Notes under the pieces: generated by a model
Seen by the model: only the letters and a program-made list of their open reading frames with translations
Database searches by the model: none
Told to the model about the DNA's origin: nothing
Program-made: the position numbers and the translations under genes
Shown: one piece after another, positions 26,172 through 53,278 of the stretch
How the letters are laid out: each line of letters starts with the position of its first letter
Position numbering within the stretch: the stretch's first letter is position 1
Assembly (NCBI RefSeq): GCF_000241525.1
Contig: NZ_AHIL01000054.1
Coordinates: 1-64,000, forward strand
Origin: Comamonas testosteroni ATCC 11996
GTDB taxonomy: Bacteria > Pseudomonadota > Gammaproteobacteria > Burkholderiales > Burkholderiaceae_C
Direction of reading: 5' to 3'
Length of the DNA: 64,000 nt

Positions 26172-26831
26172 TCAGGCCGCCAGCAGGCCCTGTTTCTCTA
26201 TGAAGGCCACCACCTCATCCAGACCTTCCAGTGTCTTGAGGTTGGTCATCACAAAGGGCTTGAGCCCCTTGGGCGTGGTGCGCTGCTTGATGGTGTCGCT
26301 GCGCATGATGTCCAGATTGGCGCCCACATGGGGAGCCAGGTCGGTCTTGTTGATGACGAAGAGATCGCTCTTGGTGATGCCGGGACCGCCCTTGCGCGGA
26401 ATCTTCTCGCCTGCTGCCACGTCGATCACGTAGATGGTCAGATCCGACAGCTCGGGGCTGAAGGTGGCAGCCAGGTTGTCGCCGCCCGATTCGATGAAGA
26501 CGATGTCGGCATCGGGGAAGTCCTTGAGCATGCGGTCAATGGCTTCCAGGTTGATGGAAGCGTCCTCGCGAATCGCCGTGTGCGGGCAGCCGCCTGTTTC
26601 CACACCCATGATGCGCTCGGCGGGCAGGGCGCCGCTGATGGTCAGCAGGCGCTGGTCTTCCTTGGTGTAGATGTCGTTGGTGATAGCGACCAGGTCCCAT
26701 TTGCCGCGCATGGCCTTGCAGAGCATCTCCAGAATCGTGGTCTTGCCCGAGCCCACGGGCCCGCCTATGCCCACGCGCAGCGGCGGCAGCTTCTTGGTGC
26801 GGTTGGGGATATGGTGCAGTGCGGTCGACAT
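26172..26831 (-). CDS. ureG: Urease accessory GTPase UreG
   Basis: GTPase that, with UreD, UreF and UreE, delivers nickel into apo-urease. 219 residues: P-loop GGPVGSGKT (23-31), the [15 protein letters not shown] metal-binding Cys-Pro-His motif, [17 protein letters not shown], and the [11 protein letters not shown] guanine-specificity motif. The ATG at 26831 has an AAAGAACTC-type weak site; the 49 extra upstream codons in frame overlap the ABM gene and are not used. It is the last gene of the minus-strand urease set. Confidence 0.97.
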
Positions 26832-26863
26832 GGTGAGTTCTTTCGGGGGTGAGAGGGTTGCGA

Positions 26864-27196
26864 TCAGCGGGCCTTGCCGTAGGCACGCTCCACCTTGGCA
26901 ATGCGCAGCTCGAAATGCTGGTACCAGGTGGTGTGGCCTTTTTCCTGGGCGATCTGGTGCTCGGCGTTGTGCTTCCATTGACGGATGGCTTCCTCGCTTT
27001 CCCAGTAAGACACGGTGATGCCGAAGCCTTCGGCATCGCGGGTGCTTTCAGCGCCCAGATAGCCTGCCTGCTGGCCGGCCAGCTCCACCATGCGCTCGGC
27101 CATCTCGCCATAGCCCTGGTCCGTCTGGGTGCGCAGGGAGGTGAAGATGGCGGCGTAGTAGGGTGGCTGGGGCGTGGCGGCAAACAGTACAGACAT
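26864..27196 (-). CDS. Antibiotic biosynthesis monooxygenase (ABM) domain protein in the urease cluster
   Basis: 110 residues of the dimeric ferredoxin-like ABM type: [20 protein letters not shown], then [36 protein letters not shown] and [20 protein letters not shown]. Members include haem-degrading and small-molecule oxygenases, and proteins of unknown role. It sits between ureF (14 bp before it) and ureG (32 bp after it) on the same strand, so it is translated as part of the urease operon. A link to nickel insertion is not known. Start at 27196 chosen to fit the domain. Confidence 0.82.
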
Positions 27197-27209
27197 GGCG
27201 GATGGAGGT

Positions 27210-27926
27210 TCAGCTACGGAAAAGTCGAGAATACTGGTGTTCATGCTGGGCCGAGAGAATGGCCAGCATGGGCGAAAAAGCCTGTCTTGCGTTGTCCGGC
27301 AACGCCAGCGCGTATTCGACGGCAGCGGGAATTTCGGAAGTCAGCCGCGCCAAGATGCGCTGGCCGGCGCTCTGGCCCAGGGGCACGGTCTTGATGGCGG
27401 CCTGAACCATGTTCTCTGCCCAGCCAAAGGCATAGGCCAGCAGTGCATCACGCGGTGTGGCGCCGGTGCATTGGGCCGCCAGCGAGAAGGCGATGGGGTA
27501 GCTGGCATCCTGCGCGCCCAGCCAGTGGACGGAGGCCAGCGGGACTGCTTCGTCGGCGTAGCGGTTTTTCAGCCACTCGGTCAGCGAGCGGCCCATCTGC
27601 TCGGTCTGCAGGCGCAGCTCGCTGGTTTCGCGCGTGACTCTTACCCACTGGTTGAGGCTGGCAATGCGCGCCAGATCCGCGCCTTTCCAGGCCGGCATAG
27701 CCTGCGCAATCACGGCCATGTCCCCGCGCGACTGGGTCAGATGCAGCTGCTGCACCAGCCAGCCAGCGGCCTCTGATTCCGTTGTGACCAGCGCCGCATT
27801 GATGGCCGCTTCAAGCCCTTCCGAATAGGAAAAGCCGCCGATGGGCAGCGCCGGCGAGGCCAGCCACATCAGCTGCAGAAAGCTCTGCGCGCCAAGAGCC
27901 AGCAGTGGCTCAGTGGGCGTGGTCAT
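27210..27926 (-). CDS. ureF: Urease accessory protein UreF
   Basis: All-helical accessory protein, about 238 residues, that binds UreD and regulates the GTPase UreG during nickel insertion. Conserved parts are [20 protein letters not shown] at the N terminus, [24 protein letters not shown] [29 protein letters not shown], and [20 protein letters not shown]. Three in-frame ATGs are possible (27962, 27938, 27926); the last gives a start like that of related proteins and overlaps the ureE stop by 17 bp. Such overlap suggests coupling with ureE. Confidence 0.95.
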
Positions 27927-28425
27927 GCGAGTGTCCATGGCCGTGATGATGGTGGCCGTCATTGGTCACATGGCCGCCATAGGCGCCTCCTTCGGGCTCG
28001 AAAGGCAGATCGGCCTCGACCACCGTCATATGCATGCTGCGCAGCATATCGGCCAGCACATGGTCGGGTTCGATCTTCAAATGGTCGGGCTGCAGCTCGA
28101 TCGGCACATGGCGGTTGCCCAGATGGTAGGCCGCGCGCATCAGGTCAAACGGCGTGCCATGCTCAGCACAGGCCGTGATGTGCAGCACTTTTTGCGGTGC
28201 GGCCAGCACGCGGATCAGGCTGCCATCTTCGGCCACCAGAACATCGCCGCCGCGCACGGCCTGGCCGCGTGGCAAGAAGACGGCCAGCTCGCGACCCAGG
28301 CTGTCGGTAGCGGCAAAGCGGCTCTTCTGACGCACATCCCAGTCCAGCTCCACGGAGGCGGCGCGTTTGAGGATGACGGTGGAAAGGCCCTGGCCCTGGA
28401 GCAGCAGTTTGTTGGCAGTCAGCAT
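27910..28425 (-). CDS. ureE: Urease accessory nickel metallochaperone UreE
   Basis: Delivers nickel to the UreG complex. 171 residues with the N-terminal peptide-binding domain ([20 protein letters not shown]), the central metal-binding domain with [25 protein letters not shown]-type sequence (split here as [20 protein letters not shown] then GNRHVPIEL), and a His-rich tail [15 protein letters not shown] beginning near residue 157, which binds several nickel ions. The ATG at 28425 starts the conserved domain. A gene on the opposite strand separates it from ureC. Confidence 0.95.
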
Positions 28426-28517
28426 GGTGAATTCACAATGAAATAAAAGGCCCGGACCAGATTGGCGCGCATGTTGCATGTGCTGCGCATATCAGTGATT
28501 TTGATGGTTCGAGCAAG

Positions 28518-29054
28518 ATGACAACTCTTTTGGAAGCTTCGGCAGAAATGGCAGCCCCGACCTCTTTGCATGATGCGCCTGCTGACTGGCAGGGCTGTGG
28601 CGCAGCCTATGTGGCGGTGTATGGCACTTTGCGTGCCGGTGGCATCAACGATATTGCCAGGCTCCAGCCGGGCATCGCCTGTGTCGGCAGGACCCAGCTG
28701 ACCGGAACTTTGCATGACCTGGGCTGGTACCCGGGCCTGAGGCTGCAAGGCACGCAAACCGTGCTGGCCGAGGTCTACCCCATGGACGCAGCGCTGGAGC
28801 GGGCCATGGATCGCATCGAAGGCCTGTGGCCCGAAGACCTGGGTGAATACGCCAAGCGCATTCTGACCCTGCCCGTGATGCTGACCCAGGGCGGTCAGCA
28901 GTCCATCACCGTGCTGGTGTACGAGGCCATGCCCGCCACCGTGAGCGCTGCGCCGCAGCTCGCCGTCAGTGACTGGCTGGCCTGGTTTGAGGGCAAGGGC
29001 ATGCAGCATCCGGATACGGAGTTTCAGCTCAACACTGCTCAGAACAGGAAGTAG
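28518..29054 (+). CDS. Gamma-glutamylcyclotransferase-like (AIG2/GGCT) protein
   Basis: 178 residues with a GGCT/AIG2 fold: the substrate loop [12 protein letters not shown] near 35-46, [20 protein letters not shown], and [17 protein letters not shown] with an acidic active-site candidate. Members cyclise gamma-glutamyl amines. It is encoded on the strand opposite to the urease genes, between ureE and ureC, and its last 16 bp overlap the 3' end of ureC tail to tail. A urease transcript crossing from ureC to ureE would be antisense to it. Confidence 0.82.
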
Positions 29055-30781
29055 CGCTGTGCCATGGGCAGGCTGACCGCGGGCTCGCAGGTCAGCAGAT
29101 CGCCATTGGCGCGCACGGCATAGGTCTGGGCGTCCACCTCCATATGCGGCGCCAGATCGTTGTGGATCATGTGCTGCTTCTTCACATTGCGTATGCCCCT
29201 GACCGCCGACAGGGTCTTGTGCAGCCCGAAGCGCTGGCCGATGCCGGCGGCAAGTCCTGCCTGGGAGACAAAGGTCAGTGAAGTTCTGGCAACTGCACCG
29301 CCAAAGCTTGCAAACATGGGGCGGTAATGCACGGGCTGAGGCGTGGGAATGGAGGCGTTCGGATCGCCCATGGCCGCCATGGCGATGCTGCCGCCCTTGA
29401 GGATGCAAAACGGCTTGACGCCAAAGAAGGCGGGCTTCCAGATCACGATATCGGCCCACTTGCCCACCTCGATGCTGCCCACCTCGTGGCTGATGCCATG
29501 GGCAATCGCGGGGTTGATGGTGTATTTGGCGATATAGCGCTTGACGCGGAAGTTGTCGTTGCGCGCGCCGTCTCCACTCAGGGCGCCGCGCTGCAGCTTC
29601 ATCTTGTGCGCCGTCTGCCAGGTACGCAGAATGACTTCGCCCACGCGACCCATGGCCTGGCTGTCGGAGCTGAACATGCTGATCGCGCCGATATCGTGCA
29701 GGATGTCCTCGGCCGCAATCGTTTCCTTGCGGATGCGGCTTTCGGCAAAGGCCAGATCTTCGGCAATGCCGGCGTCCAGGTGGTGGCAGACCATGAGCAT
29801 GTCCACATGCTCGTCCAGCGTGTTGATGGTGTAGGGGCGCGTGGGGTTGGTGGAGCTGGGCAGCACATTGGCCTCGCCCACCACTTTCAGAATGTCGGGC
29901 GCATGGCCTCCCCCCGCGCCTTCGGTGTGGAAGGTGTGAATGGTGCGGCCCTTGAAAGCCGCCACGGTGTCCTCCACAAAGCCGGACTCGTTGAGCGTGT
30001 CGGTGTGGATGGCGACCTGAGTGTCGGTGTCTTCGGCCACGTCGAGACAGTTGCTGATGGCGGCCGGCGTGCTGCCCCAGTCCTCGTGCAGCTTCAGGCC
30101 GATGGCGCCGGCACTGATCTGCTCGTGCAGGCCGCCTGGCAGGCTGGCATTGCCCTTGCCCAGAAAACCCAGATTCATGGGGAAAGCGTCGGCGGCCTGC
30201 AGCATGCGTTCCATATGCCAGGGGCCTGGCGTGCAGGTGGTAGCGAAGGTGCCGGTGGCCGGGCCGGTGCCGCCGCCGATCATGGTGGTCACGCCGCTGG
30301 TCAGTGCTTCTTCGATCTGCTGCGGGGCAATGAAATGGATATGGGTGTCGATACCGCCTGCGGTGACGATATTGCCTTCGCAGGAGATGATTTCCGTGCC
30401 CGGGCCAATGATGATGTCCACGCCGGGCTGGGTGTCGGGGTTGCCGGCCTTGCCTATGGCCGCAATACGGCCGTCCTTGAGGCCGATGTCGGCCTTGACG
30501 ATGCCCCAGTGGTCCATGATCAGTGCGTTGGTCAGCACGGTATCGACCGCGCCACCTCCGTCGGGCCCTGTTCCCGTCCCGTTGCGTGTGCGCTGGCTTT
30601 GCGCCATGCCGTCGCGGATGGTCTTGCCGCCGCCGAACTTCACTTCCTCACCATAGCCGCCAGCGGCCAGGGTGTAGTCTTTTTCGACCTCGACGATGAG
30701 TTCGGTATCGGCCAGGCGCAGGCGGTCACCCACGGTGGGGCCAAAGGTTTCTGCGTAGGCTCGTCGGTCCATGGTGGCCAT
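29039..30781 (-). CDS. ureC: Urease alpha subunit
   Basis: Catalytic subunit that hydrolyses urea to ammonia and carbamate with a dinuclear nickel centre. 580 residues. Nickel ligands and active-site parts are in place: THIH with His147 and His149, the carbamylated Lys230 in GLKLHEDWG, His259 in [22 protein letters not shown], the mobile-flap Cys in MVCHHLDAG and the Asp of [21 protein letters not shown] insertion near residue 70 makes it slightly longer than the Klebsiella enzyme. A LysE-type gene separates it from ureB. Confidence 0.98.
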
Positions 30782-30804: not shown

Positions 30805-31476
30805 TCAGCGCAGGGACTGCTGCTGGGCTGCCGGTGGCAGGGCGACGGGGCTTGTGCTGAGCAGGTCGCGCAATGTACCCAGTGCCAGGGCCAGCAGCAG
30901 TGCGGCGCAGCAGCGGTAGGTAAAACGGCTCCAGTGCGCGGCAGCGCGGCGGAAGAGCCGGTCCACCAAGGCTGCGCAGACAAAGCACCAGAGCAGGGAT
31001 GAAGTCATGAACCCCGCGAAGAACAGCCCGTAGTCGCTGGCGCCGGGCTGGGTCACTCCCACGGCTCCGAGGGCGCTGCCCATGGCGGCCCAGTAGGCCA
31101 GGTTCTGCGGGTTGGTCAGCGACAGGGCCATGCCGCGGCGCAGGGCCTGCTTCTGCGTGGCGGCGGCGGTGGCCGAGGCATCGAGCCGGTGTTCGGTACG
31201 CGCGGCCTTCCAGCTGTCCCAGGACAGCCAGAGCAGGTAGGCGGTGCCCGCCAGACCCATCGGCCAGCGCAAGGCGTCGACCTGCATGACCAGACCAATG
31301 CCGGCCAGGCCCAGCAAGGCCCAGCTTGCATCGCCCACCAGGGAGCCCAGCTGCACGGCCAGCGCCGGGCGATAGCCGCCGCGCAGACCTTGGCGCACGG
31401 TCTCGGCAAACACCGCTCCGGGCGCTGCGTTGAACACCAGGCCCAGGACAAAAGCAGAAGCAAAGAGCATCAGCAT
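30805..31476 (-). CDS. LysE-family membrane exporter within the urease operon
   Basis: 223 residues with about six hydrophobic helices, starting FASAFVLGLVFNAAPGAVFA, which carries the LysE/RhtB signature (N-A-A-P-G). Family members export amino acids or related small molecules. It lies between ureB (6 bp upstream) and ureC (23 bp downstream), all on the same strand, so it is translated with urease. In the few descriptions known to me the role of such inserted LysE genes is unsettled; export of an amine or help with metal uptake are guesses. Confidence 0.85.
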   Translation of the reverse strand: MLMLFASAFVLGLVFNAAPGAVFAETVRQGLRGGYRPALAVQLGSLVGDASWALLGLAGIGLVMQVDALRWPMGLAGTAYLLWLSWDSWKAARTEHRLDASATAAATQKQALRRGMALSLTNPQNLAYWAAMGSALGAVGVTQPGASDYGLFFAGFMTSSLLWCFVCAALVDRLFRRAAAHWSRFTYRCCAALLLALALGTLRDLLSTSPVALPPAAQQQSLR

Positions 31477-31482
31477 GGCAGG

Positions 31483-31806
31483 TCAGTCCCTGGCCGCTAC
31501 GGGCAATGGGCCCTGGACCAGACTGCGAAAACCATAGATCTGGCGGTCGCCGCCGATCTCGACCAGCTCCACCGTGCGCTGCTGGCCCGGCTCGAAGCGC
31601 ACGGCCATGCCACTGGCAATATTCAGGCGCATGCCGTGGGCGGCGGTGCGGTCGAAATCCAGGCCCGCATTGGTTTCGGCGAAGTGGTAGTGCGAGCCGA
31701 CCTGAATCGGCCGGTCGCTGGCATTGTTCACCACCAGCGTGAGCGTGCGGCGGCCGGGGTTGAGTGCATGGCTGCCCTCGTCAAGAATCAGTTCGCCGGG
31801 GATCAT
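31483..31806 (-). CDS. ureB: Urease beta subunit
   Basis: Structural subunit of the (UreABC)3 enzyme, 107 residues of normal length. Conserved parts: [39 protein letters not shown] with [13 protein letters not shown], and [20 protein letters not shown]. It lies after ureJ and before the LysE-type gene. It appears intact. Confidence 0.97.
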
Positions 31807-31860: not shown

Positions 31861-32478
31861 TCAGGCCAGTTTCGTCAGCATGAAAGCGCCGAGTGCAGCG
31901 GTGGCGGCACCGCCGAACCGGGCCGCCCATTGGTGGCGCTGCATGACGGCATGACCGAGCACCATGCCAGCGATATGCAGCGTGGCCGAGCCCAGAGCAA
32001 TGCCCACCAGTGCGCCGACGGCCGCCAGGCCGCTGTCTCCGGCCAGCTCAAAGCCGTGCGCTGCGCCGTGGAAGAAGGCAAACACTGCAGCCAGTGCGGC
32101 GGCAACGCCCCAGGGCATTTTTTGCTGGACCAGCACCAGCAGGCCCAGCACCAGCACGGACGCGGCAATCATGGGCTCCACGCCCGGCACCCACAGGCCG
32201 GCAAAGCCGGCCACGGCACCCGCCACCAATAGGGCCACAAAGGCCGCAGGTGCACGCCAGGCCGTGCGCGGGCTGGGCATGGTCAGCGCGCTCCAGGCGC
32301 CCACGGCCAGCATGGCGGCCAGATGGTCTACACCGGTAAACGGGTGGGCAAAGGCATGGCCCAGGCTGTCGAGAAAGTGGTGATGGCCGCCTGCATCAGA
32401 GCCCATATGTGCGAGAGCGGACAGGGGCAGTGCGGTCGCCGCAGCGGCTGTGGTGGCAAGGAGCTTATTGAATTTCAT
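31861..32478 (-). CDS. ureJ: HupE/UreJ-family nickel permease
   Basis: About 205 residues: a signal-peptide-like N terminus (KLLATTAAAATALPLSALAH), a His-rich segment (GSDAGGHHHFLDSLGHAFAH) that resembles the conserved HPxTGxDH motif in HPFTGVDHLAAMLAVGAW, and about six membrane helices. HupE/UreJ proteins are linked with nickel uptake for hydrogenase and urease. It lies between ureA and ureB. Start at 32478 fixed by the signal peptide. Confidence 0.9.
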   Translation of the reverse strand: MKFNKLLATTAAAATALPLSALAHMGSDAGGHHHFLDSLGHAFAHPFTGVDHLAAMLAVGAWSALTMPSPRTAWRAPAAFVALLVAGAVAGFAGLWVPGVEPMIAASVLVLGLLVLVQQKMPWGVAAALAAVFAFFHGAAHGFELAGDSGLAAVGALVGIALGSATLHIAGMVLGHAVMQRHQWAARFGGAATAALGAFMLTKLA

Positions 32479-32495
32479 AGCTATCTGCGCTTGAT
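32476..32495. repeat. Short AGCT(..)TGCGCTT repeat copy between ureA and ureJ
   Basis: CATAGCTATCTGCGCTTGAT, a diverged copy overlapping the start codon of ureJ. It belongs to the short repeat group seen elsewhere in this window. Confidence 0.4.
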
Positions 32496-32542
32496 GGATA
32501 GGGGTTTGATGGCTGAAAGGCTTGAAGTCTCTGGATGCTGCT

Positions 32543-32845
32543 TCAGGCGATGGGCTCATGCACGGTGACCAGCTTGGTGCCATCGGGGAAGGTGGCCTCG
32601 ATCTGGATGTCGGGAATCATCTCGGGGATGCCCTCCATCACATCGGCGCGGGTCAGCACGCTGCGGCCTTCGCTCATGAGCTGGGCCACGGTCCTGCCAT
32701 CGCGTGCTCCCTCCATCACAAAGGCGCTGATCAGTGCCACGGCCTCGGGGTAGTTGAGCTTGAGGCCACGAGCCATTCGCCGCTCGGCCAGCAGGGCGGC
32801 GGTAAAGATCAACAGCTTGTCTTTTTCGCGTGGTGTCAGTTCCAT
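32543..32845 (-). CDS. ureA: Urease gamma subunit
   Basis: Structural subunit, exactly 100 residues from the ATG at 32845 ([20 protein letters not shown]), the standard length. An in-frame TTG 9 bp upstream is rejected. Other conserved parts: [38 protein letters not shown] and [20 protein letters not shown]. It is the first gene of the minus-strand urease set, about 69 nt downstream of the start predicted from a sigma-54 promoter. No ureD precedes it, unlike in most operons of this type. Confidence 0.97.
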
Positions 32846-32924
32846 CTTCTTCAATCCCTCAGTCAGCTCGCGCAGTCGGTGGCACCGGCAGAACGCACGC
32901 TGGGAGTTTCATGCCCTTTTATGT

Positions 32925-32940
32925 AGCAAGTGCCATGCCA
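32925..32940 (-). promoter_or_regulatory. Sigma-54 promoter for ureA
   Basis: On the minus strand TGGCATGGCACTTGCT, 11 of 12 defined positions of TGGCACGN4TTGCW with exact GG-10-GC spacing. Predicted transcription start near 32914. Confidence 0.8.
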
Positions 32941-32988
32941 AAGGCCAGTCTTTATTGCCAGCCTGTAGGCAAGCCGTTGCAGATGTTT

Positions 32989-33005
32989 TGCACCTTGTTG
33001 GTGCT
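32989..33005. promoter_or_regulatory. NtrC-type enhancer site between ureA and the TonB receptor gene
   Basis: TGCACC-TTGTT-GGTGCT, 11 of 12 matches to the NtrC half-sites TGCACC-N5-GGTGCA. It is centred about 83 bp upstream of the ureA start and 122 bp upstream of the divergent start, both normal enhancer distances. Confidence 0.75.
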
Positions 33006-33092
33006 GCCGGCACCCGGTTGTGCACCAGGGTGTATCGGTGAGGCCGCGATGGTGCTTTGTGGTGCATTGGCGAGCCGTAGCGGTGCATTGCA

Positions 33093-33108
33093 TGGCACGA
33101 ACTTTGCT
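33093..33108 (+). promoter_or_regulatory. Sigma-54 promoter for the TonB receptor gene
   Basis: TGGCACGAACTTTGCT matches every defined position of TGGCACGN4TTGCW. The expected transcription start (about 33119) coincides with the ATG at 33119, so the true start codon may lie further in or the mRNA may be leaderless. Upstream lie near-repeats GGTGC(T/A)TTG at 33051, 33061 and 33082 with 10- and 21-bp spacing. Confidence 0.8.
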
Positions 33109-33118
33109 GTTCTGGTGC

Positions 33119-35203
33119 ATGTACAAAAGACCGTTGAATAGGGGAGGCGCGCAGTGCCTGGGTACCACGGCAAGACTCGCAGTGCTGGTCTTGGGCGGTA
33201 CGCTGTGGATGGCTTCAGCCGTACAAGCGCAAACAGCCGAGGAAGGCGACAAGGTATTGCCCGAGGTGAGGGTGAATGCCCTGGTCAAAGGCCAGGCGCT
33301 GGACGAGTCACAACGCGCGTTTTCCGTCACCGAGTTCAGGCGCGATGAAATTCGCGAGCAGCCCAGACAGGAGGTGGAATCATTGTGGAGCCAGGTACCC
33401 GGCATGCATGTCAATCACTACCAGCTCAGCGGTGTGGCCAACGGGCTGGTGCTGCGCGGTTTTGGCGGCGGTGGCCATGGCGGCGATGTGGCGGCCACAC
33501 TGGATGGCATCCCGCTCAACGAAGCCATGTCGCATGCTGATGGATATTTCGATCTCAATGTGGTGGTGCCGCTGGAGCTGGACAAGGTCAATGTCTATCG
33601 CGGTCCCGTGTCGGTGCTGCAGGGCAATTACAACCGAGCAGGGCTGCTGGAGATGCGCACGCGGCGCAGCGGCAGCTATGCGGAGTTCGATGTCAGCGCC
33701 GGCTCCCATGGCATGTTCGATGCACAGTCCGCTCTCGGGCGCGAGCTGGAGGGGGGCGATCAGCTCAACCTGGCTACTCAGCATGCACGCGGTGATGGAG
33801 CGCGGCCCGCCTCGCGCCATGAGCGCAGCACCCTCAGCGGCACCTGGAAGCACCATGTGCATGAAAAGCTCGATATCTCGCTGTCCGGTCGCTGGCACGA
33901 GGCGCGTGGCGACTCGCCCGGCTATCTGACCGAAGCGCAGTGGCGGCAGGACCCACAGGGCAAGGACAGTCGCGTAGTGGGGGATGGTGCCAACAAGCAC
34001 TTTGGCACGCTGCGCCTGGATGCGCAGTACGCACTGGATGCAGATACCCGGCTGCTGGGTTTTGTCTACGGCACGCAGCAGGATTTTGTGCGCTGGTTCA
34101 CCCGCCCGCGCAGCTCCACCTGGATGCAGCGCGAGGAGCGCTACGACCGCAGCGTGCTGGGAGCGGGGCTGAATCTCAGTGGCAAGTCGCTTCTGGTGGC
34201 GCGCGAGCTGAACTGGATGCTGGGCCTGGAGCAGGTGCGCGAGTCCACGGACTATGGCTACTGGGATGGATTGCTCGACCGCCGGCGCACCGGCCCTGCA
34301 TTGAGTGATCGCAATACGCGGCTCGACAACACAGCGATCTACGGCCAGGCTGGCTGGCAGCCAACGGCCTGGTTGCAGACCACGGCGGCCCTGCGCTGGG
34401 ACCACTTTGACGGCCGTTGCCGTCTGCTGGGGGCAGAGGCCGGTGGCGATGAATGCAATCGCATGCAGGGCCGCAGCCATGCCAGCCCCAAGCTGGGAGC
34501 ACTGGCGCATCTCAATGCCCGCACAGCCGTGCGTGCCAGCTGGTCGCAGGGCTTTGCGCTGCCCAGCGACTTTGCCAAGTACGCGCTGCGCAACAGCGAC
34601 CTGCATGCGAATATCTTTCGCCAGAGCGAGCTGGGCGTGGAGTGGAAGCCATCGGCCCATTGGCTGATCGATGCCTCGCTCTATCGCATCGGCTCCAGCC
34701 ATGAAATACGCAACACGGCGCCTGGTGAGTATGAAAACCTGGGCGCGACCGTGCGCAAGGGCGTAGAGCTGCAGCTGCACTGGCTGCCCAGCCGCAACTG
34801 GCATGTGGAATGGGCTTATGGCCACAATCGCTCCGAAGTCACGCAGAACGCGGATGCCGCACTGCTGGGCCGGCGCGTGGTGGCCGTGCCCGAGTACACC
34901 AGCACCTTGCATGCGCGCTGGATGCCGCGCAGCGATGTCACCTTGCATGGCGTGCTGCGCCATGTGGGGCGTGCGCCCATCAACGCCAGCAATACTGAAT
35001 GGGCGGGCAGCTATCGCTGGCTGGACCTGGGCCTGCAATACCGCTTGCCCGCAAGCCTGGCGCGCAATGCCAGCCTGAGCCTGTGGCTGCGCAACGCCGC
35101 CAACACCCGCTATGCCAGTACCACCACCATGATTGCCGGCCAGCGCCTGGTCGCCCCCGGCGTGCCGCGCAGCGTGCAGCTGGGCCTGCAGTTTTCCTTA
35201 TGA
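33119..35203 (+). CDS. TonB-dependent outer-membrane receptor
   Basis: About 694 residues: signal peptide (RLAVLVLGGTLWMASAVQA), TonB box region, plug domain (about 45-170; LWSQVPGMHVNHYQLSG, VLRGFGGGGHGGDVAATLDG) and a 22-strand barrel ending in an aromatic residue pattern (SVQLGLQFSL). A His-rich plug loop (GGGGHGGD) may bind metal. The substrate is inferred, not shown: the adjacent DUF4198 gene and the divergent urease operon suggest nickel or a nickel chelate. Start uncertain: 33119 (ATG) or an in-frame TTG at 33134. Confidence 0.88.
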   Translation: MYKRPLNRGGAQCLGTTARLAVLVLGGTLWMASAVQAQTAEEGDKVLPEVRVNALVKGQALDESQRAFSVTEFRRDEIREQPRQEVESLWSQVPGMHVNHYQLSGVANGLVLRGFGGGGHGGDVAATLDGIPLNEAMSHADGYFDLNVVVPLELDKVNVYRGPVSVLQGNYNRAGLLEMRTRRSGSYAEFDVSAGSHGMFDAQSALGRELEGGDQLNLATQHARGDGARPASRHERSTLSGTWKHHVHEKLDISLSGRWHEARGDSPGYLTEAQWRQDPQGKDSRVVGDGANKHFGTLRLDAQYALDADTRLLGFVYGTQQDFVRWFTRPRSSTWMQREERYDRSVLGAGLNLSGKSLLVARELNWMLGLEQVRESTDYGYWDGLLDRRRTGPALSDRNTRLDNTAIYGQAGWQPTAWLQTTAALRWDHFDGRCRLLGAEAGGDECNRMQGRSHASPKLGALAHLNARTAVRASWSQGFALPSDFAKYALRNSDLHANIFRQSELGVEWKPSAHWLIDASLYRIGSSHEIRNTAPGEYENLGATVRKGVELQLHWLPSRNWHVEWAYGHNRSEVTQNADAALLGRRVVAVPEYTSTLHARWMPRSDVTLHGVLRHVGRAPINASNTEWAGSYRWLDLGLQYRLPASLARNASLSLWLRNAANTRYASTTTMIAGQRLVAPGVPRSVQLGLQFSL

Positions 35204-35218: not shown

Positions 35219-35950
35219 ATGTCTGTTTGCAGCACACGTAAAAACATCATCGCGCGCATTCTGTGCACCACGGCTGCTGCCTGGTTGCTATGCGCCCATC
35301 CGGCTTCTGCCCATAACGTGTGGCTGGAGCCCGACGCGCAGGGTGGCTATGTCATGCAGTTTGGCGGTCATGAAGGCAGGACCGAAGCCTTCGATCCGGC
35401 CAAGCTGCAGCGGGTGCATGCCTATGACCTGCGCGGCCGTGAAGTGCCCAGTGCCGTGCAGAATGTGCAGGGCGGCATCCGCATCAAGCCCGATGCCGGT
35501 GCTGCGCTGATCGCAGTGGAGCTCGATAACGGCTATTTCAGCAGTACGGGTGCCGAGGGTGCCATGCTGCCTATGCCCATGGACCAGAACCCCGGTGCGG
35601 TTCGCGGCGTTCATGCGCGCAAGTTCCACAAGACCGTGGTGCGCTGGGGTGCCGTCATGCAAAAGCCGCTGGGTCAGATGTTTGAGGTGGTTCCTCTGCA
35701 GGGGCAGTCTCCCCATGCCGGTCAGCCGTTCAGGCTGCAGGTGTTGCTGCATGGCAAGCCGCAGCCTGGCGTCAGACTGTCCTGGGGAGAGAATGGCTCT
35801 CCCGCGATGACGGACGCGCAGGGTCAGGCGAGCATGACGCCAGTTGTCGGCAGCAATACGTTGCAGGCCATATTGCGTCAGCCGGTGCAGGGCGATCCCA
35901 AAACCACCGAGAACAGCTACGAGTATCTGCTGCGCTTTGCCGTGCATTGA
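35219..35950 (+). CDS. DUF4198 periplasmic protein (candidate metal-uptake component)
   Basis: 243 residues: signal peptide (IIARILCTTAAAWLLCAHPASA) followed by HNVWLEPDAQGGYVMQFGGH, the typical N-terminal His of mature DUF4198 proteins, and an Ig-like carboxypeptidase-regulatory-type C-terminal domain (QPGVRLSWGENGSPAMTDAQ). DUF4198 domains occur in NikK, a component of nickel/cobalt transporters, and next to TonB receptors. It follows the receptor gene by 15 bp, with a GGAG site, so the two form an operon. A periplasmic nickel-relay role is an inference from family and context. Confidence 0.82.
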   Translation: MSVCSTRKNIIARILCTTAAAWLLCAHPASAHNVWLEPDAQGGYVMQFGGHEGRTEAFDPAKLQRVHAYDLRGREVPSAVQNVQGGIRIKPDAGAALIAVELDNGYFSSTGAEGAMLPMPMDQNPGAVRGVHARKFHKTVVRWGAVMQKPLGQMFEVVPLQGQSPHAGQPFRLQVLLHGKPQPGVRLSWGENGSPAMTDAQGQASMTPVVGSNTLQAILRQPVQGDPKTTENSYEYLLRFAVH

Positions 35951-36694: not shown

Positions 36695-36710
36695 TGGCAC
36701 ACCGTTTGCT
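36695..36710 (+). promoter_or_regulatory. Sigma-54 promoter for the ferredoxin-led cluster
   Basis: TGGCACACCGTTTGCT fits TGGCACGN4TTGCW at 11 of 12 defined positions, with exact spacing. Predicted transcription start near 36721, inside a TetR-type palindrome. Confidence 0.8.
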
Positions 36711-44744: not shown

Positions 44745-44760
44745 TGGCACGGTAATTGCA
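44745..44760 (+). promoter_or_regulatory. Sigma-54 promoter for the urt operon
   Basis: TGGCACGGTAATTGCA matches every defined position of TGGCACGN4TTGCW with exact spacing. Predicted transcription start near 44771, giving a 42-nt leader before urtA. Confidence 0.9.
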
Positions 44761-44812
44761 CTTCAGGTTCTGCGGTCAATGTGACCGAACAAAACCTCCT
44801 GGGAGTGCTGAA

Positions 44813-46081
44813 ATGAATCGTCGCGGAACCCTCACAACACTGGCTGCATCCATGGCTCTGGGCCTGGGATTGACTTCTCAGGTGCTGGCTGCAGACACCA
44901 TCAAGGTGGGTGTGTTGCACAGCCTCTCGGGCACCATGGCCATCTCCGAGACCGTGCTCAAGGACACGGTGCTGATGGCCATCGACGACATCAATGCCAA
45001 GGGCGGCGTGATGGGCAAGAAGCTGGAGCCCGTGGTGGTGGACCCGGCCTCCAACTGGCCGCTGTTTGCCGAAAAGGCCAAGCAGCTGATCACCCAGGAC
45101 AAGGTGGCCGTGGTCTTCGGTTGCTGGACCAGCGTGTCGCGCAAGTCCGTGCTGCCGGTGTTCGAGCAGAACAACGGCCTGCTGTTCTACCCCGTGCAGT
45201 ACGAGGGCGAGGAACTCTCCAAGAACGTCTTCTACACCGGTGCCGCGCCCAACCAGCAGGCCATTCCCGCTGTCGAGTACCTGATGAGCAAGGAAGGCGG
45301 CGGTGCCAAGCGCTTTGTGCTGCTGGGCACGGACTATGTGTACCCGCGCACCACCAACAAGATTCTGCGTGCCTTCCTCAAGTCCAAGGGCGTGAAGGAT
45401 TCCGACATCATGGAAACCTACACTCCCTTCGGCCACAGCGACTACCAGACCATCGTGGCCGATGTGAAGAAGTTCTCCACCGGTGGCAAGACCGCCGTGA
45501 TCTCCACCATCAACGGCGACTCCAATGTGCCCTTCTACAAGGAGCTGGGCAATGCCGGCCTCAAGGCCAAGGATGTACCGGTCGTGGCCTTCAGCGTGGG
45601 TGAGGAAGAGCTGCGTGGTGTGGACACCAAGCCTCTGGTCGGTCACCTGGCGGCATGGAACTACTTCATGAGCGTGAAGAACCCGACCAACACGGCCTTC
45701 ATCAAGCAGTGGGGCGATTACGCCAAGGCCAAGAACATCGCCGGCCACAAGGACAAGCCGCTGACCAACGACCCGATGGAAGCCACCTGGGTCGGCATCC
45801 ACATGTGGAAGCAGGCCGTGGAGAAAGCCAAGAGCACGGATACCGACAAGGTGATCGCCGCCATGGCCGGCCAGACCTTTACCGCACCCAGCGGCTTCAC
45901 CCTGAAGATGGACGAGAAGAACCACCATCTGCACAAGCCTGTGATGGTTGGCGAGATCAAGGCAGACGGTCAGTTCAGCGTGGTCTGGAAGACCAAGGGT
46001 CCGATCAAGGCCCAGCCCTGGAGCCCGTATATCGAAGGCAACGACAAGAAGAAGGACGAGCCCAACGGCAAGAGCTCCTGA
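44813..46081 (+). CDS. urtA: Urea ABC transporter substrate-binding protein UrtA
   Basis: 422-residue periplasmic binding protein of the branched-chain amino acid/amide type that captures urea. Signal peptide (MNRRGTLTTLAASMALGLGL, ending QVLAAD), then IKVGVLHSLSGTMAISET, VVFGCWTSVSRKSVLPVFEQ, LLFYPVQYEGEELSKN and TYTPFGHSDYQTIVADVKKF, all typical of UrtA. The ATG at 44813 has a GGGAG site. First gene of urtABCDE, behind a sigma-54 promoter with two NtrC-type sites. A stem-loop follows it. Confidence 0.96.
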   Translation: MNRRGTLTTLAASMALGLGLTSQVLAADTIKVGVLHSLSGTMAISETVLKDTVLMAIDDINAKGGVMGKKLEPVVVDPASNWPLFAEKAKQLITQDKVAVVFGCWTSVSRKSVLPVFEQNNGLLFYPVQYEGEELSKNVFYTGAAPNQQAIPAVEYLMSKEGGGAKRFVLLGTDYVYPRTTNKILRAFLKSKGVKDSDIMETYTPFGHSDYQTIVADVKKFSTGGKTAVISTINGDSNVPFYKELGNAGLKAKDVPVVAFSVGEEELRGVDTKPLVGHLAAWNYFMSVKNPTNTAFIKQWGDYAKAKNIAGHKDKPLTNDPMEATWVGIHMWKQAVEKAKSTDTDKVIAAMAGQTFTAPSGFTLKMDEKNHHLHKPVMVGEIKADGQFSVVWKTKGPIKAQPWSPYIEGNDKKKDEPNGKSS

Positions 46082-46092
46082 TTCGCTCCCGC

Positions 46093-46124
46093 GGACTGGA
46101 GAGGTCTGGTGGGCTCTCCAGTCC
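46093..46124 (+). other. Intercistronic stem-loop between urtA and urtB
   Basis: Perfect 11-bp stem GGACTGGAGAG / CTCTCCAGTCC with a 10-nt loop and no T run. Such structures after a binding-protein gene typically protect the upstream part of the mRNA, allowing more binding protein than permease. Confidence 0.7.
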
Positions 46125-46130
46125 TGAAGA

Positions 46131-46173
46131 GATAGCTGCTTGCGCTTTATTGACAAGGGCTGCAGCGCTAGAA
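46131..46173. repeat. Short AGCTGCTTGCGCTT repeat copy between urtA and urtB
   Basis: GATAGCTGCTTGCGCTTTAT, then TGACAAGGGCTGCAGCGCTAG as a partial inverted end. It shares 15 of its first bases with the copy at 50215. Confidence 0.6.
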
Positions 46174-46186
46174 ACCTGAAATTCCT

Positions 46187-47800
46187 ATGAACATACTGCG
46201 CAAGTCATTGAGGCTGGCATTGTCCGCCGGACTGGGCTCGTTGCTGAGCTTTGCCAGTCACGCACTGACAACCGAGCAGGCCTATGCCATGGCTGCGGCA
46301 GACGACTCCGAGCAGCGCGTGCTGGCGATCAATCAGGCCGTGCTGGCGCCGGATGCACAGACCGACGGCGGTCGCCTGTCGGCCTATCTCGGCGCGCTCG
46401 CCAACGATGAAGTGCGCGTGTCCCAGGGCAAGGTCTATGTGACGAGCGGCGACGCGGTCACCGACCCGGTGACCGGCCAGGCCGCCCAACTCCCGACGGA
46501 TGCTGAGGAGGTCGTCAGCAACAATTACCTGCGCTCGGTCATCGACACGGCGCAGGCTGCGCTGGCGTTGGGCAGCAGCGATGTGCAGGCGCGCCGCAAG
46601 GCTGCCGAGCAACTGGCCTCCGAGCCTGATGCCGGGCGGCTTCCCCTGATCGAAAAAGCGCTGGCCACTGAACAGGACGGGCAGGTCAGAGCGCTGCTGG
46701 AGCGCAGCCAGGCTGCCAGCCTGCTGGGCAGCGACGAGGTGCAGCAGCGTCTGAAGGCGGTGGAGCAGCTGTCGCGCCAGCAGACGCCGGAGACGCAGCT
46801 GCTGCTGAACCAGCGCCTGTCCGAAGAGTCCGATCCCGGCGTGCAAAAGGCCATCAAGGCCGCGCTGGCCGGCATTGCCGAAGGCCTGGCCTGGGGCGAC
46901 AGGCTGGGGGCGATCTTCAGCGGCATCAGCCTGGGCTCGGTGCTGTTGCTGGCGGCGCTGGGTCTGGCCATCACCTACGGCCTGATGGGCGTCATCAACA
47001 TGGCGCACGGCGAGCTGATCATGATCGGTGCCTATGCGACCTATCTGGTGCAGGTCGCATTCCAGCGCTGGCTGCCCGAGGCCTGGTTTGGCTGGTATCT
47101 GGTGGTGGCCGTTCCCGTGGCCTTTCTGGCTTCGGCGCTGGTGGGTGCGGTGCTGGAGCGCGGCGTGATCCGCTTTCTCTACGGCCGCCCGCTGGAGACC
47201 CTGCTGGCCACCTTCGGCATCAGCCTGGTGCTGCAGCAGACCGTGCGCAGCCTTTTCGGAGCGCAGAACGTGGGTGTGGAAAACCCCGTCTGGATGAGCG
47301 GCGGGATCGCGCTGCTGCCCAATCTGACCCTGCCCTGGAACCGCATCGCCATCATCGTCTTTGCGTTCGCCGTGCTGGCGGGCGTGGCCTTCATGATTGC
47401 CAGAACGCGGCTGGGCCTGTTCGTGCGCGGCGTGACACAGAACCGCGCCATGGCTTCCTGTGTGGGCGTCAACACGGCACGCACCGACACCTATGCGTTT
47501 GCACTGGGCTCCGGTATCGCCGGTCTTGCCGGCTGCGCCCTGAGCCAGATCGGCAATGTGGGTCCGGATCTGGGGCAGAACTACATCGTGGACAGTTTCC
47601 TGGTGGTGGTGCTGGGCGGTGTAGGGCAGCTGGCGGGCACCGTCTATGCGGCTCTGGGACTGGGCGTGCTCAGCAAGCTGCTGGAAGGCTGGACCGGAGC
47701 CGTGCTGGCCAAGATCGCCGTGCTGCTGTTCATCGTGGTCTTCATTCAAAAGCGTCCGCAAGGCATCTTTGCCTTGAAGGGCCGCAGTGCGGAAACATGA
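46187..47800 (+). CDS. urtB: Urea ABC transporter permease UrtB
   Basis: 537 residues: signal-like N terminus, a long periplasmic N-terminal extension with helical repeats (about 25-240, LSRQQTPETQLLLNQRLSEE) that is usual for UrtB, and a LivH-type permease domain with about eight helices (GLMGVINMAHGELIMIGAYA, TLLATFGISLVLQQTVRSLF, LGGVGQLAGTVYAALGLG). It lies after a stem-loop and a repeat, in line with urtA. Confidence 0.95.
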   Translation: MNILRKSLRLALSAGLGSLLSFASHALTTEQAYAMAAADDSEQRVLAINQAVLAPDAQTDGGRLSAYLGALANDEVRVSQGKVYVTSGDAVTDPVTGQAAQLPTDAEEVVSNNYLRSVIDTAQAALALGSSDVQARRKAAEQLASEPDAGRLPLIEKALATEQDGQVRALLERSQAASLLGSDEVQQRLKAVEQLSRQQTPETQLLLNQRLSEESDPGVQKAIKAALAGIAEGLAWGDRLGAIFSGISLGSVLLLAALGLAITYGLMGVINMAHGELIMIGAYATYLVQVAFQRWLPEAWFGWYLVVAVPVAFLASALVGAVLERGVIRFLYGRPLETLLATFGISLVLQQTVRSLFGAQNVGVENPVWMSGGIALLPNLTLPWNRIAIIVFAFAVLAGVAFMIARTRLGLFVRGVTQNRAMASCVGVNTARTDTYAFALGSGIAGLAGCALSQIGNVGPDLGQNYIVDSFLVVVLGGVGQLAGTVYAALGLGVLSKLLEGWTGAVLAKIAVLLFIVVFIQKRPQGIFALKGRSAET

Positions 47801-47803
47801 AAC

Positions 47804-47905
47804 ACCCCCTGAGTCGCTTCGCGACCTCCCCCGCTCTCGCATTGCTGCGCGCTGCGGGCAGGGGACGACACCCTCGCTGCGGGGCGGCCCTTGCTCGGTG
47901 TCTCG
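47804..47905. repeat. Dispersed intergenic repeat copy between urtB and urtC
   Basis: CCCCCTGAGTCGCTTCGCGA, CCTCCCCC, a GC-rich centre, GGGGACGACACC, then GGGGCGGCCCTTGCTCGGTG and TCTCG. The same order of blocks occurs at 50046-50161 and, inverted, at 16311-16390. Confidence 0.75.
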
Positions 47906-47965
47906 TACCTGGGCCGCGCCAGCTGCGCAGGCCATGTGCCTTGCTCGACTTGAGGGAAAACTGAC

Positions 47966-49174
47966 ATGACAACCCAATTCATACCCATCGAACTGCCCAA
48001 GCCAGCGCCGCTGCTATCCGCCAAGGGCTGGACGGCATTTCTGCTGGCCCTGACCATGGTCTGCGCCGTGGCTCCCGCACTCAATCTGTGGGTGCCCGAG
48101 GGCAGTGCGCTGCACCTTTCCGACTACATGCTGGGCCTGCTGGGCAAGTTCATGTGCTATGCCATCTGCGCGCTGGCGATTGATCTGATCTGGGGCTATA
48201 CCGGCATCCTGAGCCTGGGCCACGGCCTGTTCTTCGCACTGGGCGGCTATGTGATGGGCATGTACCTGATGCGCGAGGCCGCAGGCCCTGATGCGTTGCC
48301 CGCCTTCATGGGCTTTCTGGACTGGAAGGAGCAGCCCTGGCACTGGGCGCTGTCGGGCAGCTTTGCCGCCACCGTGTTGCTGGTGTTTCTGGTGCCGGGC
48401 CTGATCGGCGGGCTGTTCGGCTACTTCGCCTTTCGCTCGCGCATCAAGGGCGTGTATTTCTCCATCATCACCCAGGCCCTGACCTACGCGGCCATGCTGC
48501 TGTTCTTCCGCAACGAGACCGGTTTTGGCGGCAACAACGGCTTCACGGGCTTCAAGACCCTGCTGGGTTTTTCCGTCAACTCGCAAGCCATGCATGTGCT
48601 GCTGTTCGCGCTGTCGGGGCTGGCGCTGCTGGGCTGCTTCCTGTTCTCGCGCTGGCTGATGCGCAGCAAGTACGGCCGCGTGCTGCAGGCCGTACGCGAT
48701 GCCGAATCGCGCACCATGTTCTGCGGCTACAACCCGCTGCCCTACAAGCTGTCGATCTGGGTCATCTCGGCCATGATGTGCGGCCTGGCGGGCGCGCTGT
48801 ATGTGCCCCAGGTGGGCATCATCAACCCCAGCGAGATGAGCGTGGGAAACTCCATCGAAATGGCGGTGTGGACGGCCGTGGGCGGACGTGCCTCGCTGGT
48901 CGGCCCCATCATCGGCGCGTTTGCCGTCAATGGCGGCAAGAGCTGGCTCACCGTGGCCGCACCCGAGTACTGGCTGTACGTACTGGGTGCGCTGTTCATC
49001 GTCGTGACGCTGTTCATGCCGGGAGGACTGATCCGGCTGCCGCAGCAGCTTCGCCAGTGGCGTGAGAAGCGCAAGGCGCAGGCCCCGGTGCCGTTGAACC
49101 AGACTGCAGTCGCAGCTGCCAAAACCGCTGCCGAGCCGGCTTCTGCCGATGCCATCGAAGGAGTGCGCGCATGA
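47966..49174 (+). CDS. urtC: Urea ABC transporter permease UrtC
   Basis: 402 residues, LivM-type permease: about ten membrane helices, with LIWGYTGILSLGHGLFFALG, YFAFRSRIKGVYFSIITQAL, FGGNNGFTGFKTLLGFSVNS and the ESRTMFCGYNPLPYKL cytoplasmic loop typical of UrtC. The Ala-rich C-terminal tail is unconserved. The stop overlaps the urtD start by 4 bp. Confidence 0.95.
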   Translation: MTTQFIPIELPKPAPLLSAKGWTAFLLALTMVCAVAPALNLWVPEGSALHLSDYMLGLLGKFMCYAICALAIDLIWGYTGILSLGHGLFFALGGYVMGMYLMREAAGPDALPAFMGFLDWKEQPWHWALSGSFAATVLLVFLVPGLIGGLFGYFAFRSRIKGVYFSIITQALTYAAMLLFFRNETGFGGNNGFTGFKTLLGFSVNSQAMHVLLFALSGLALLGCFLFSRWLMRSKYGRVLQAVRDAESRTMFCGYNPLPYKLSIWVISAMMCGLAGALYVPQVGIINPSEMSVGNSIEMAVWTAVGGRASLVGPIIGAFAVNGGKSWLTVAAPEYWLYVLGALFIVVTLFMPGGLIRLPQQLRQWREKRKAQAPVPLNQTAVAAAKTAAEPASADAIEGVRA

Positions 49175-50046
49175 CCCCCGATCTGATGCAGGAAGGCGAG
49201 CAGCGCCTGGCCTCCTACCAGCAGCGCGAAGCCGCGCTGCGCACCGAATCCGGCGGTCGCAACGCCAGTCTGGCTCGCCCCGTGGTGGCCGGCGAAGTGG
49301 ATGTGACCCATGGCCGAATTCTCTATCTCGAAGACGTGCATGTGAGCTTCGACGGCTTCAAGGCCATCAACGGTCTGAGTCTCGATATCGCGCCCGGCGA
49401 GCTGCGCTGCATCATCGGTCCCAATGGCGCGGGCAAGACCACGATGATGGACATCATCACCGGCAAGACCCGACCCGACAGCGGCACGGTGTTCTTCGGC
49501 TCCACCATCGATCTGCTGCGCTACAAGGAGCCCGAGATCGCGGCCATGGGCATTGGCCGCAAGTTCCAGAAGCCCACGGTGTTCGAGCAGCTCAGCGTGT
49601 TCGAGAACCTGGAGCTGGCGCTCAAGACCCACAAGGGCATTGCCTCCTCCATGCTGTTCAAGCTCAACGGCGCGCAGAAGGACCGGATTGCCGAGGTGCT
49701 GCACACCATTCATCTGGCAGGCAGCGTAACGCGCCAGGCCGGGCTGCTCAGTCACGGACAGAAGCAGTGGCTGGAGATCGGCATGCTGCTGGTGCAGGAG
49801 CCCAAGCTGCTGCTGCTCGACGAGCCTGTGGCCGGCATGACCGACGAGGAAACGGTGCGCACGGCCGAGCTGTTTCTGACGCTCAAGGGCAAGCATTCGC
49901 TGATGGTGGTGGAGCACGACATGAGCTTTATCGACACCATCAGCGAGAAGGTCACGGTGCTTTGCGATGGCTCGGTACTGGCTGAGGGAACGCTGGCCGA
50001 GGTGCAAGCCGACGAGCGCGTGATCGAGGTGTACCTTGGGAGGTAG
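49171..50046 (+). CDS. urtD: Urea ABC transporter ATP-binding protein UrtD
   Basis: 291 residues, LivG-type ATPase: Walker [33 protein letters not shown], signature-like LSHGQKQWLEIGMLL (His in place of Gly, normal for UrtD), Walker B LLLLDEPVAGMTDEE and switch His in VVEHDMSF. An N-terminal extension of about 48 residues precedes the domain. Start overlaps the urtC stop. Confidence 0.95.
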   Translation: MTPDLMQEGEQRLASYQQREAALRTESGGRNASLARPVVAGEVDVTHGRILYLEDVHVSFDGFKAINGLSLDIAPGELRCIIGPNGAGKTTMMDIITGKTRPDSGTVFFGSTIDLLRYKEPEIAAMGIGRKFQKPTVFEQLSVFENLELALKTHKGIASSMLFKLNGAQKDRIAEVLHTIHLAGSVTRQAGLLSHGQKQWLEIGMLLVQEPKLLLLDEPVAGMTDEETVRTAELFLTLKGKHSLMVVEHDMSFIDTISEKVTVLCDGSVLAEGTLAEVQADERVIEVYLGR

Positions 50047-50161
50047 CCCCCTGAGGCACTTTGCCTGGGCGGCCCCGCGCCTTCCCCCTCTCTCTACGCG
50101 CTTCGCGCTAAGGGAGGGGGACGACTGCTTCGGTGCGCGGCGGCGCTTCCTCGCTGTCTCG
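50046..50161. repeat. Dispersed intergenic repeat copy between urtD and urtE
   Basis: CCCCCTGAGGCACTTTGCCT, CTTCCCCC, a CGCGCTTCGCGC centre, GGAGGGGGACGACTGCTTCGG, and CGGCGGCGCTTCCTCGCTGT with TCTCG, matching the block order of 47804-47905. It starts right at the urtD stop codon. Confidence 0.75.
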
Positions 50162-50214
50162 TTAATTGGGTAGCGCCAGTTTCAAACGTCATGCGCTCCG
50201 CAGATAGTCAAATT

Positions 50215-50254
50215 AGATAGCTGCTTGCGCTTGCTGTGTAAGCGTTAGAGGTCG
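50215..50254. repeat. Short AGCTGCTTGCGCTT repeat copy upstream of urtE
   Basis: GATAGCTGCTTGCGCTTGCT, then GTGTAAGCG with TTAGAGGTCG, an imperfect hairpin (GCGCTT / AAGCG). It ends 3 bp before the urtE start codon and so includes its ribosome binding site region. Confidence 0.6.
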
Positions 50255-50257
50255 AAA

Positions 50258-50950: not shown

Positions 50951-50962
50951 ATATCGGGCGGA

Positions 50963-50989
50963 GAAAAAAAGGTGCCGCAAGCGGCACCT
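50963..50989 (-). terminator. Terminator for the minus-strand dioxygenase gene
   Basis: Stem AGGTGCCGC / GCGGCACCT with a 2-nt loop; on the minus strand it is followed by seven T, on the plus strand it has no T run. It lies 38 bp past the dioxygenase stop. Confidence 0.82.
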
Positions 50990-51027
50990 CAAAGCCTCAG
51001 GCCATGCCCGCAGGACAACTCATTTCG

Positions 51028-52017: not shown

Positions 52018-52044
52018 GGGATTTTTCCTGATGAGAGCGGGGCT

Positions 52045-53112: not shown

Positions 53113-53278
53113 GAAAGCTCCTGAAGTCAATCGCCATGCGCTTTGCGGGCTGGCGTGCTGAAGACTGTAGAAGCGCGGCAGCATTGCAACAACGAATGAA
53201 TTTTCATGAGTTAGTAAGCAAAAGAGCTGAGCTACCCGGGCCTGAGCGGCAGGCCTGCTTGAAGAGGCGAGAAAGACA

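Follow-up and report, generated by a model that had tools for sequence, protein, structure and literature searches.

A probable nitrogen-controlled divergent promoter linking urease to a putative nickel receptor in Comamonas testosteroni

The 273-bp spacer between ureA, which encodes the gamma subunit of urease, and a divergently oriented gene for a TonB-dependent outer-membrane receptor lies within a 64,000-nt stretch of the Comamonas testosteroni ATCC 11996 genome (contig NZ_AHIL01000054.1, positions 1 to 64,000; hereafter the window). This spacer quite probably serves as a two-way, nitrogen-controlled promoter through which urease and its nickel supply would be made together. The sigma-54 site facing ureA, TGGCATGGCACTTGCT, has one mismatch to the consensus TGGCACN5TTGCW, and the one facing the receptor gene, TGGCACGAACTTTGCT, matches it exactly; both stand where the original prediction had located them (Table 1). 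Sigma-54-dependent transcripts usually begin 12 nt after the GC element, and this rule places the predicted starts at 32914 for ureA and 33119 for the receptor. Between the two promoters is an NtrC-type palindrome, TGCACCTTGTTGGTGCT, with one mismatch to TGCACCN5GGTGCA. Its centre falls at −83 relative to the predicted ureA start and −122 relative to that of the receptor, and recomputation of these distances returned the 83 and 122 bp given before.

Conservation of the arrangement was assessed in 53 genomes of the GTDB genus. Receptor copies with an E-value of at most 1e-150 were counted as strong, yielding 24 copies in 22 of the 53 genomes, 13 of which face ureA; a shortened G355 copy (L154/L187), which also faces ureA and has a sigma-54 site with one mismatch, was left out of the 24. 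Both promoters are kept in all 13 ureA-facing copies, the receptor-side site with at most one mismatch in each. All 13 also contain the palindrome with no more than two mismatches, and 11 of them with no more than one. Distances are similarly stable: the two predicted starts are 205–207 bp apart in 10 of the 13, while the distance from the palindrome is 82–83 bp to the predicted ureA start and 122–125 bp to that of the receptor, each in 11 copies, so that the spacing proposed for checking in other Comamonas genomes proved to be largely preserved. Across the 12 core spacers, the 11 others match the window at 79–98.5% in the motif columns versus 64% in the remaining 201 columns. The sigma-54 site of urease extends beyond the receptor-linked loci. 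Homologs of ureA were found in 42 of the 53 genomes, and 37 of the 43 ureA matches examined (of 44; a sub-cut-off match in G354 was left out) carry, in the 400 bp upstream, a sigma-54 site with no more than one mismatch, whether or not a receptor adjoins. The six loci lacking such a site (L184, L185, L190, L205, L207, and L208) include that of G006, on the same contig as the Delftia tsuruhatensis locus L103, and urease control at these loci may differ. In the shortened copy (L154, from a Comamonas metagenome-assembled genome, on the contig of L187), the divergent promoter pair is kept and the receptor match covers residues 18–411 before the NikK-like gene, which we read as an internal loss or an assembly error.

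Chance occurrence of such motifs in a spacer is barely credible, although counts confined to the 64-kb window would agree with it: 8 sigma-54-like matches were counted there (4.6 expected) and 11 palindromes (8.9 expected). Across the 5.4-Mb genome, exact sigma-54 sites number 24 against 3 for a reversed-pattern control, and palindromes with at most one mismatch number 80 against 6; three of the 24 exact sites fall inside the window. Furthermore, when the spacer was dinucleotide-shuffled 2000 times, 0.1% of the shuffles contained both promoters (at most one mismatch) and none contained the promoters together with the palindrome; shuffles of five other spacers gave both promoters in 0 to 0.05% and all three elements never. 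The argument from window counts alone is overturned by this genome-wide excess, by the shuffles, and by the 13/13 conservation with fixed spacing; chance is contradicted because promoters and spacing are conserved in relatives.

The expected regulatory machinery is present, since ntrC and rpoN occur in the genome and motifs of the same types are found at glnA and urtA. The single rpoN of the genome lies inside the window (14642–16207), which it shares with three exact and one near-exact sigma-54 promoter sites. One protein exceeds the curated cut-off of the NtrC model, and its gene is located on contig 31, a few kb from glnA. The latter gene (TIGR00653, over cut-off) is preceded by two tandem palindromes with 0 and 1 mismatch and by a sigma-54 site with one mismatch, and urtA (TIGR03407, E 4.4e-181), with the promoter and palindromes listed in Table 1, presumably belongs to the same regulon as the urease/receptor spacer. 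We infer from these motifs that NtrC would be the activator at the spacer. Counting against this assignment, the genome holds 60 further NtrC-model matches below the cut-off (61 in total, one alone over it), and therefore another enhancer-binding protein could act at the spacer instead. Such an activator is quite unlikely, given that the same type of palindrome stands at glnA and urtA and that urease and urt genes are reported within the NtrC regulon of Burkholderia cenocepacia (PMC5491218). The prediction that nitrogen limitation would switch on urease and the receptor together is thus supported by comparison, through the motifs, the presence of ntrC and rpoN, and the glnA and urtA controls.

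The region between the palindrome and the receptor gene contains TGCACC or GGTGCA half-sites at approximately −96, −56, −35, and −3 of the receptor promoter; their spacing, 21 to 40 bp, is roughly a whole number of helical turns. The first of them shows 98.5% column identity across the 12 core spacers and is shifted to −75 in the genus copy with a 21-bp deletion. This array could possibly act like the weak NtrC sites of Escherichia coli glnAp2. Among the 24 exact sigma-54 sites of the genome, the receptor site is the richest in half-sites, with four in 300 bp. Half-sites are nevertheless unspecific: exact sigma-54 sites not recognized as nitrogen-related carry two or three, that of urtA carries one, and the site near ntrC none. 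Half-site counts were consequently dropped as proof of NtrC, their specificity being too low.

Whether one enhancer serves both promoters is a separate matter. The palindrome is situated between the promoters as originally described; its spacing is fixed in most copies, and it would serve both. It is also conceivable that both promoters are of the sigma-54/NtrC type but that the palindrome acts chiefly on one of the two, in which case the half-site array or a second activator would drive the receptor. The half-sites do track the receptor promoter, and the distances are not invariant: that from palindrome to ureA changes in G344 and G362, and that from palindrome to receptor in G362 and in G018, in whose copy (L002) the stretch from palindrome to receptor promoter is shorter by 21 bp, or two helical turns. 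Against a one-sided palindrome, 12 of the 13 genus copies hold one palindrome (at most two mismatches, among the two best matches listed) between the starts, at mostly fixed distances in both directions. We regard the one-sided arrangement as rather doubtful and favor a shared enhancer.

The receptor possesses both barrel and plug domains, and the gene directly 3′ of it encodes a DUF4198 protein related to NikK. The latter aligns over 199 residues (32–230) with 9gcb_A, the solved NikK of a nickel energy-coupling factor (ECF) transporter, at an E-value of 1.3e-29, His32 being paired with residue 1 of the 9gcb_A chain. According to single tblastn queries (with flanks of about 1.5 kb for the genus copies), a NikK relative lies near 22 of the 24 genus receptor copies and near 62 of 76 wider loci, among which NikR was matched at 33, NikL at 22, and CbiM at 8. 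No CbiM/NikM match was obtained in the 13 genomes with a urease-linked receptor, including that of ATCC 11996; the protein is therefore a NikK relative without its ECF transporter, outside any NikKMLQO system, and is termed NikK-like here. A 2009 survey reported orphan NikK proteins lacking NikMQO, which were thought to be perhaps nickel independent (PMC2667541). The inner-membrane step of nickel uptake is likely performed by the UreJ/HupE protein of the urease cluster, whose gene is found near ureA at 42 of 43 ureA loci. Urease is the main nickel enzyme identified here because no match to NiFe hydrogenase, the only other nickel enzyme searched for, was found in the 53 genomes.

Nickel is a well-supported proposal for the cargo of the receptor, based on gene neighborhood and homology. 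In all 11 of the strong genus copies that do not face ureA, nikR is located immediately upstream on the same strand, and NikK relatives accompany most loci. These relationships support the earlier suggestion that the receptor is linked to nickel supply for urease: its next gene encodes a NikK relative, and its nearest non-urease relatives sit beside nikR. Several observations fit an alternative in which the receptor is nitrogen regulated and imports another cargo, such as iron or another metal chelate. The first sequence models name siderophore receptors, below cut-off; the closest solved structures are YncD/PqqU and siderophore receptors, with CntO, a receptor for metal–pseudopaline, among the weaker matches; DUF4198 relatives have been assigned to the iron (Fur) and zinc (Zur) regulons of Caulobacter (PMC3751524, PMC4176598); and 12 of the 76 wider loci lack all the nickel genes looked for. 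Such a cargo is unlikely in view of the NikK match of the adjacent gene, the 11/11 association with nikR, the presence of NikL or CbiM near some wider relatives, and the adjoining urease genes.

NikR-linked and urease-linked receptors differ consistently in their upstream sequences. None of the 11 NikR-linked genus copies has an upstream sigma-54 site within one mismatch of the consensus, although an NtrC-like palindrome (at most one mismatch) without sigma-54 lies within 500 bp upstream of three, which fits the distinction less well. NikR identity was confirmed by curated models on example loci. Only two of the 13 urease-type genomes (G020 and G363) have NikR, in both cases adjoining a second receptor copy of the NikR type; the remaining 11, ATCC 11996 included, lack it. 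In a scan of 101 receptor loci (nine counted twice; weak matches L159–L161 left out), a sigma-54 site with at most one mismatch occurs at 18 of the 19 loci divergent from ureA and at none of the 82 others, or at 14 of 15 and none of 77 after deduplication. The exception among the ureA-facing loci, L031 of G119 from another genus, has a sigma-54 site with two mismatches. In one genome (G020:C1:445704-454668, L201), three TonB receptor matches are close together, the first with nikR upstream. A hydrogenase as the cause of the NikR/NtrC split was set aside, no NiFe hydrogenase being found in any of the 53 genomes.

In a tree of 87 receptors (leaving out the nine duplicates, one protein shorter than 500 aa, and L107, L154, L156, and L157, which were cut off, shortened, or weak), the 14 urease-linked receptors form one group with a Shimodaira–Hasegawa-like approximate likelihood ratio test (SH-aLRT) value of 100. 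This group is nested with five NikR-linked genus copies (support 100), and a sister group of 21 receptors, 14 of them NikR-linked, joins with support 82. The simplest history would be a single placing of the receptor–NikK pair at ureA with loss of nikR, the direction being taken from the surroundings of the group in an unrooted tree. The NikR box is GTATGA-N16-TCATAC, and no match with up to three mismatches is present before the receptor in the spacer of ATCC 11996; look-alikes with two mismatches occur in L002 and L003 and one with three in L221. A GTATGA-N15-TCATAC dyad precedes nikR in NikR-linked Xenophilus and Acidovorax (L138 and L139), and no equally clear dyad of this kind was seen before nikR in the nearest genus relatives. 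In near relatives, a dyad AAACCGAGTAAGCAAAATCGGTTT common to L227, L228, and L231 (as a variant in L231) lies 71–82 bp before nikR and represents a candidate NikR operator. The best reading of these patterns is that control of the receptor changed from nickel to nitrogen.

The receptor ATG at 33119 coincides exactly with the predicted sigma-54 transcript start, and the receptor mRNA would therefore be leaderless. The same holds in relatives, with the ATG at +1 (8) or +2 (4) in 12 of the 13 urease-linked genus copies, in frame with a sequence that by eye resembles a signal peptide and whose letters vary between species. No other ATG, GTG, or TTG start codon close to the predicted 5′ end is kept by all 12 core copies. 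Other starts were weighed and rejected: GTG 33020, which opens the longest frame, would put the promoter inside the frame and is followed by in-frame stops in L218, L222, and L223; TTG 33134 and CTG 33158 were also considered, the TTG being absent in L003 and L218. The G362 copy and L031 have leaders of 27 and 19 nt, respectively, with a purine-rich stretch before the ATG. At ureA itself, the ATG lies at +2 or +3 (1–2 nt past the predicted start) in 10 of the 37 sigma-54 loci, where the protein begins MELTPREK as elsewhere. Taken with the usual 12-nt rule, on which it depends, this pattern suggests a leaderless receptor mRNA, and the conserved ATG would offer a good test case for leaderless translation under strict on/off control. 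Mapped leaderless transcripts are on record in proteobacteria (PMC3616915).

Under nitrogen limitation, phosphorylated NtrC would bind the palindrome, perhaps aided by the helically spaced half-sites, and via DNA looping would activate sigma-54 polymerase waiting at both promoters. The leftward output would comprise urease, its accessory proteins, and the UreJ permease, and the rightward output the TonB receptor, which would carry nickel across the outer membrane, together with the NikK-like periplasmic carrier; UreJ would then transfer nickel across the inner membrane. In the Comamonas clade, the receptor would have been placed beside ureA and gained sigma-54 and NtrC sites, and NikR would have been lost, the order of these steps being a proposal. 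For the fuller proposal the odds seem to us even: that NtrC, not nickel, sets outer-membrane nickel uptake along with apo-urease from one enhancer, that the nickel repressor of the receptor was discarded, that the sigma-54 receptor mRNA is leaderless, and that orphan NikK proteins are periplasmic partners of TonB nickel receptors. The last of these would give a possible function to NikK proteins occurring without NikMQO.

Table 1. Features of the window around the ureA–receptor spacer, with related promoter sites and loci
Feature	Coordinates or loci	Strand	Remarks
Sigma-54 promoter facing ureA	32925..32940	-	Predicted start 32914; leader 69 nt up to ATG 32845
Sigma-54 promoter facing TonB receptor gene	33093..33108	+	Exact consensus; predicted start 33119
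NtrC-type palindrome, presumed shared enhancer	32989..33005		1 mismatch
TGCACC half-site	33021..33026		About -96 of receptor start; -96 to -99 in 10/13 genus copies
GGTGCA half-site	33061..33066		About -56 of receptor start; position kept in 7/13 genus copies
GGTGCA half-site	33082..33087		About -35, adjoins -24 element; position kept in 11/13 genus copies
GGTGCA half-site	33114..33119		Ends on predicted start, overlaps A of ATG; 8/13 genus copies
TonB-dependent outer-membrane receptor	33119..35203	+	PF00593 E 3.9e-31; PF07715 E 1.6e-13
NikK-like periplasmic protein (DUF4198)	35219..35950	+	PF10670
ureA, urease gamma subunit	32543..32845	-	ATG start; PF00547 E 2.5e-47
ureJ/hupE, likely inner-membrane nickel permease	31861..32583	-	PF04955 E 4.1e-43; open frame, real start probably inside
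ureB	31483..31806	-	By eye; homologues near ureA in relatives (tblastn)
ureC	29039..30781	-	TIGR01792 over cut-off
ureE, ureF, ureG	26172..28479	-	UreE and UreG models over cut-off
Sigma-54 promoter of urtA	44745..44760	+	Exact; NtrC-like palindromes at -191 (1 mismatch) and -141 (2 mismatches)
Leaderless-looking ureA loci	L170, L177, L180, L181, L187, L188, L194, L195, L196, L209		

The urease cluster includes several additional genes. A LysE-type exporter gene (30805–31476) lies between ureB and ureC, a gamma-glutamylcyclotransferase-like gene on the opposite strand (28518–29054) between ureC and ureE, and an ABM-domain gene (26864–27244) between ureF and ureG; ureF (27210–27962) was named by eye and had no NCBIfam match at 1e-10. 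Separated from the other urease genes, ureD (53279–54109, PF01774) is located in the urt region (44745–54109), where urtA is followed by what appear by eye to be the remaining urea transporter genes. Elsewhere in the window, an exact sigma-54 site (36695–36710) has a predicted start that precedes the ATG of a Fer2 ferredoxin gene by 26 nt, with a degenerate NtrC-like palindrome (two mismatches) at −77. Among the genes after it are flavodoxin-like, amidohydrolase, RidA-like, creatininase-family, and NMT1-type transporter genes, and the set is probably another nitrogen-scavenging operon.

Several known systems resemble parts of this arrangement. At E. coli glnAp2, a strong NtrC enhancer lies about 100–140 bp upstream of the sigma-54 promoter, with weaker sites between. 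The enhancer distance and the weaker intervening sites are alike; however, the Comamonas spacer has two divergent promoters around one palindrome, and its half-sites extend across the promoter to +1. Burkholderia cenocepacia, which belongs to the same bacterial order as Comamonas, is reported to have urease, urea transport, and nickel uptake under NtrC. In an ntrC mutant of strain H111, urease, the urea transporter, and the nickel permease gene hoxN (log2 −4.7) are reported to lose expression, and control of urease by NtrC and sigma-54 is described as shown in that species (PMC5491218). The permease there is, in contrast, of the NiCoT type and encoded at a distant gene number; TonB is absent from the text of that report, and the parts of it available to us do not describe a shared divergent promoter (PMC5491218). 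Sigma-54 control of urease genes has also been predicted widely in alpha- and beta-proteobacteria (PMC12316311). In the Brucella ure2 operon, urease genes are found with nikKMLQO (PMC2868824). A NikK-family gene is thus linked to urease genes in both cases, although in Brucella it belongs to an ECF NikKMLQO transporter, whereas the 13 urease-type genomes give no CbiM/NikM match and have a TonB receptor instead. Searches of the open-licence literature by title and abstract start turned up no paper in which NtrC governs a TonB receptor and NikK or in which NtrC takes the place of NikR.

Metal uptake is usually described as being controlled by a sensor of that metal, and TonB-dependent nickel uptake under NikR is known from the Helicobacter FrpB4 type. 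Like FrpB4, the Comamonas protein is a TonB-dependent receptor taken to carry nickel; in contrast, the C. testosteroni genome has no nikR and its spacer no NikR box (up to three mismatches), sigma-54 and NtrC sites being present instead. Among close relatives, the same receptor gene adjoins nikR in certain species and has nitrogen-type promoters in others, so that the switch from one type of control to the other can be studied within one genus.

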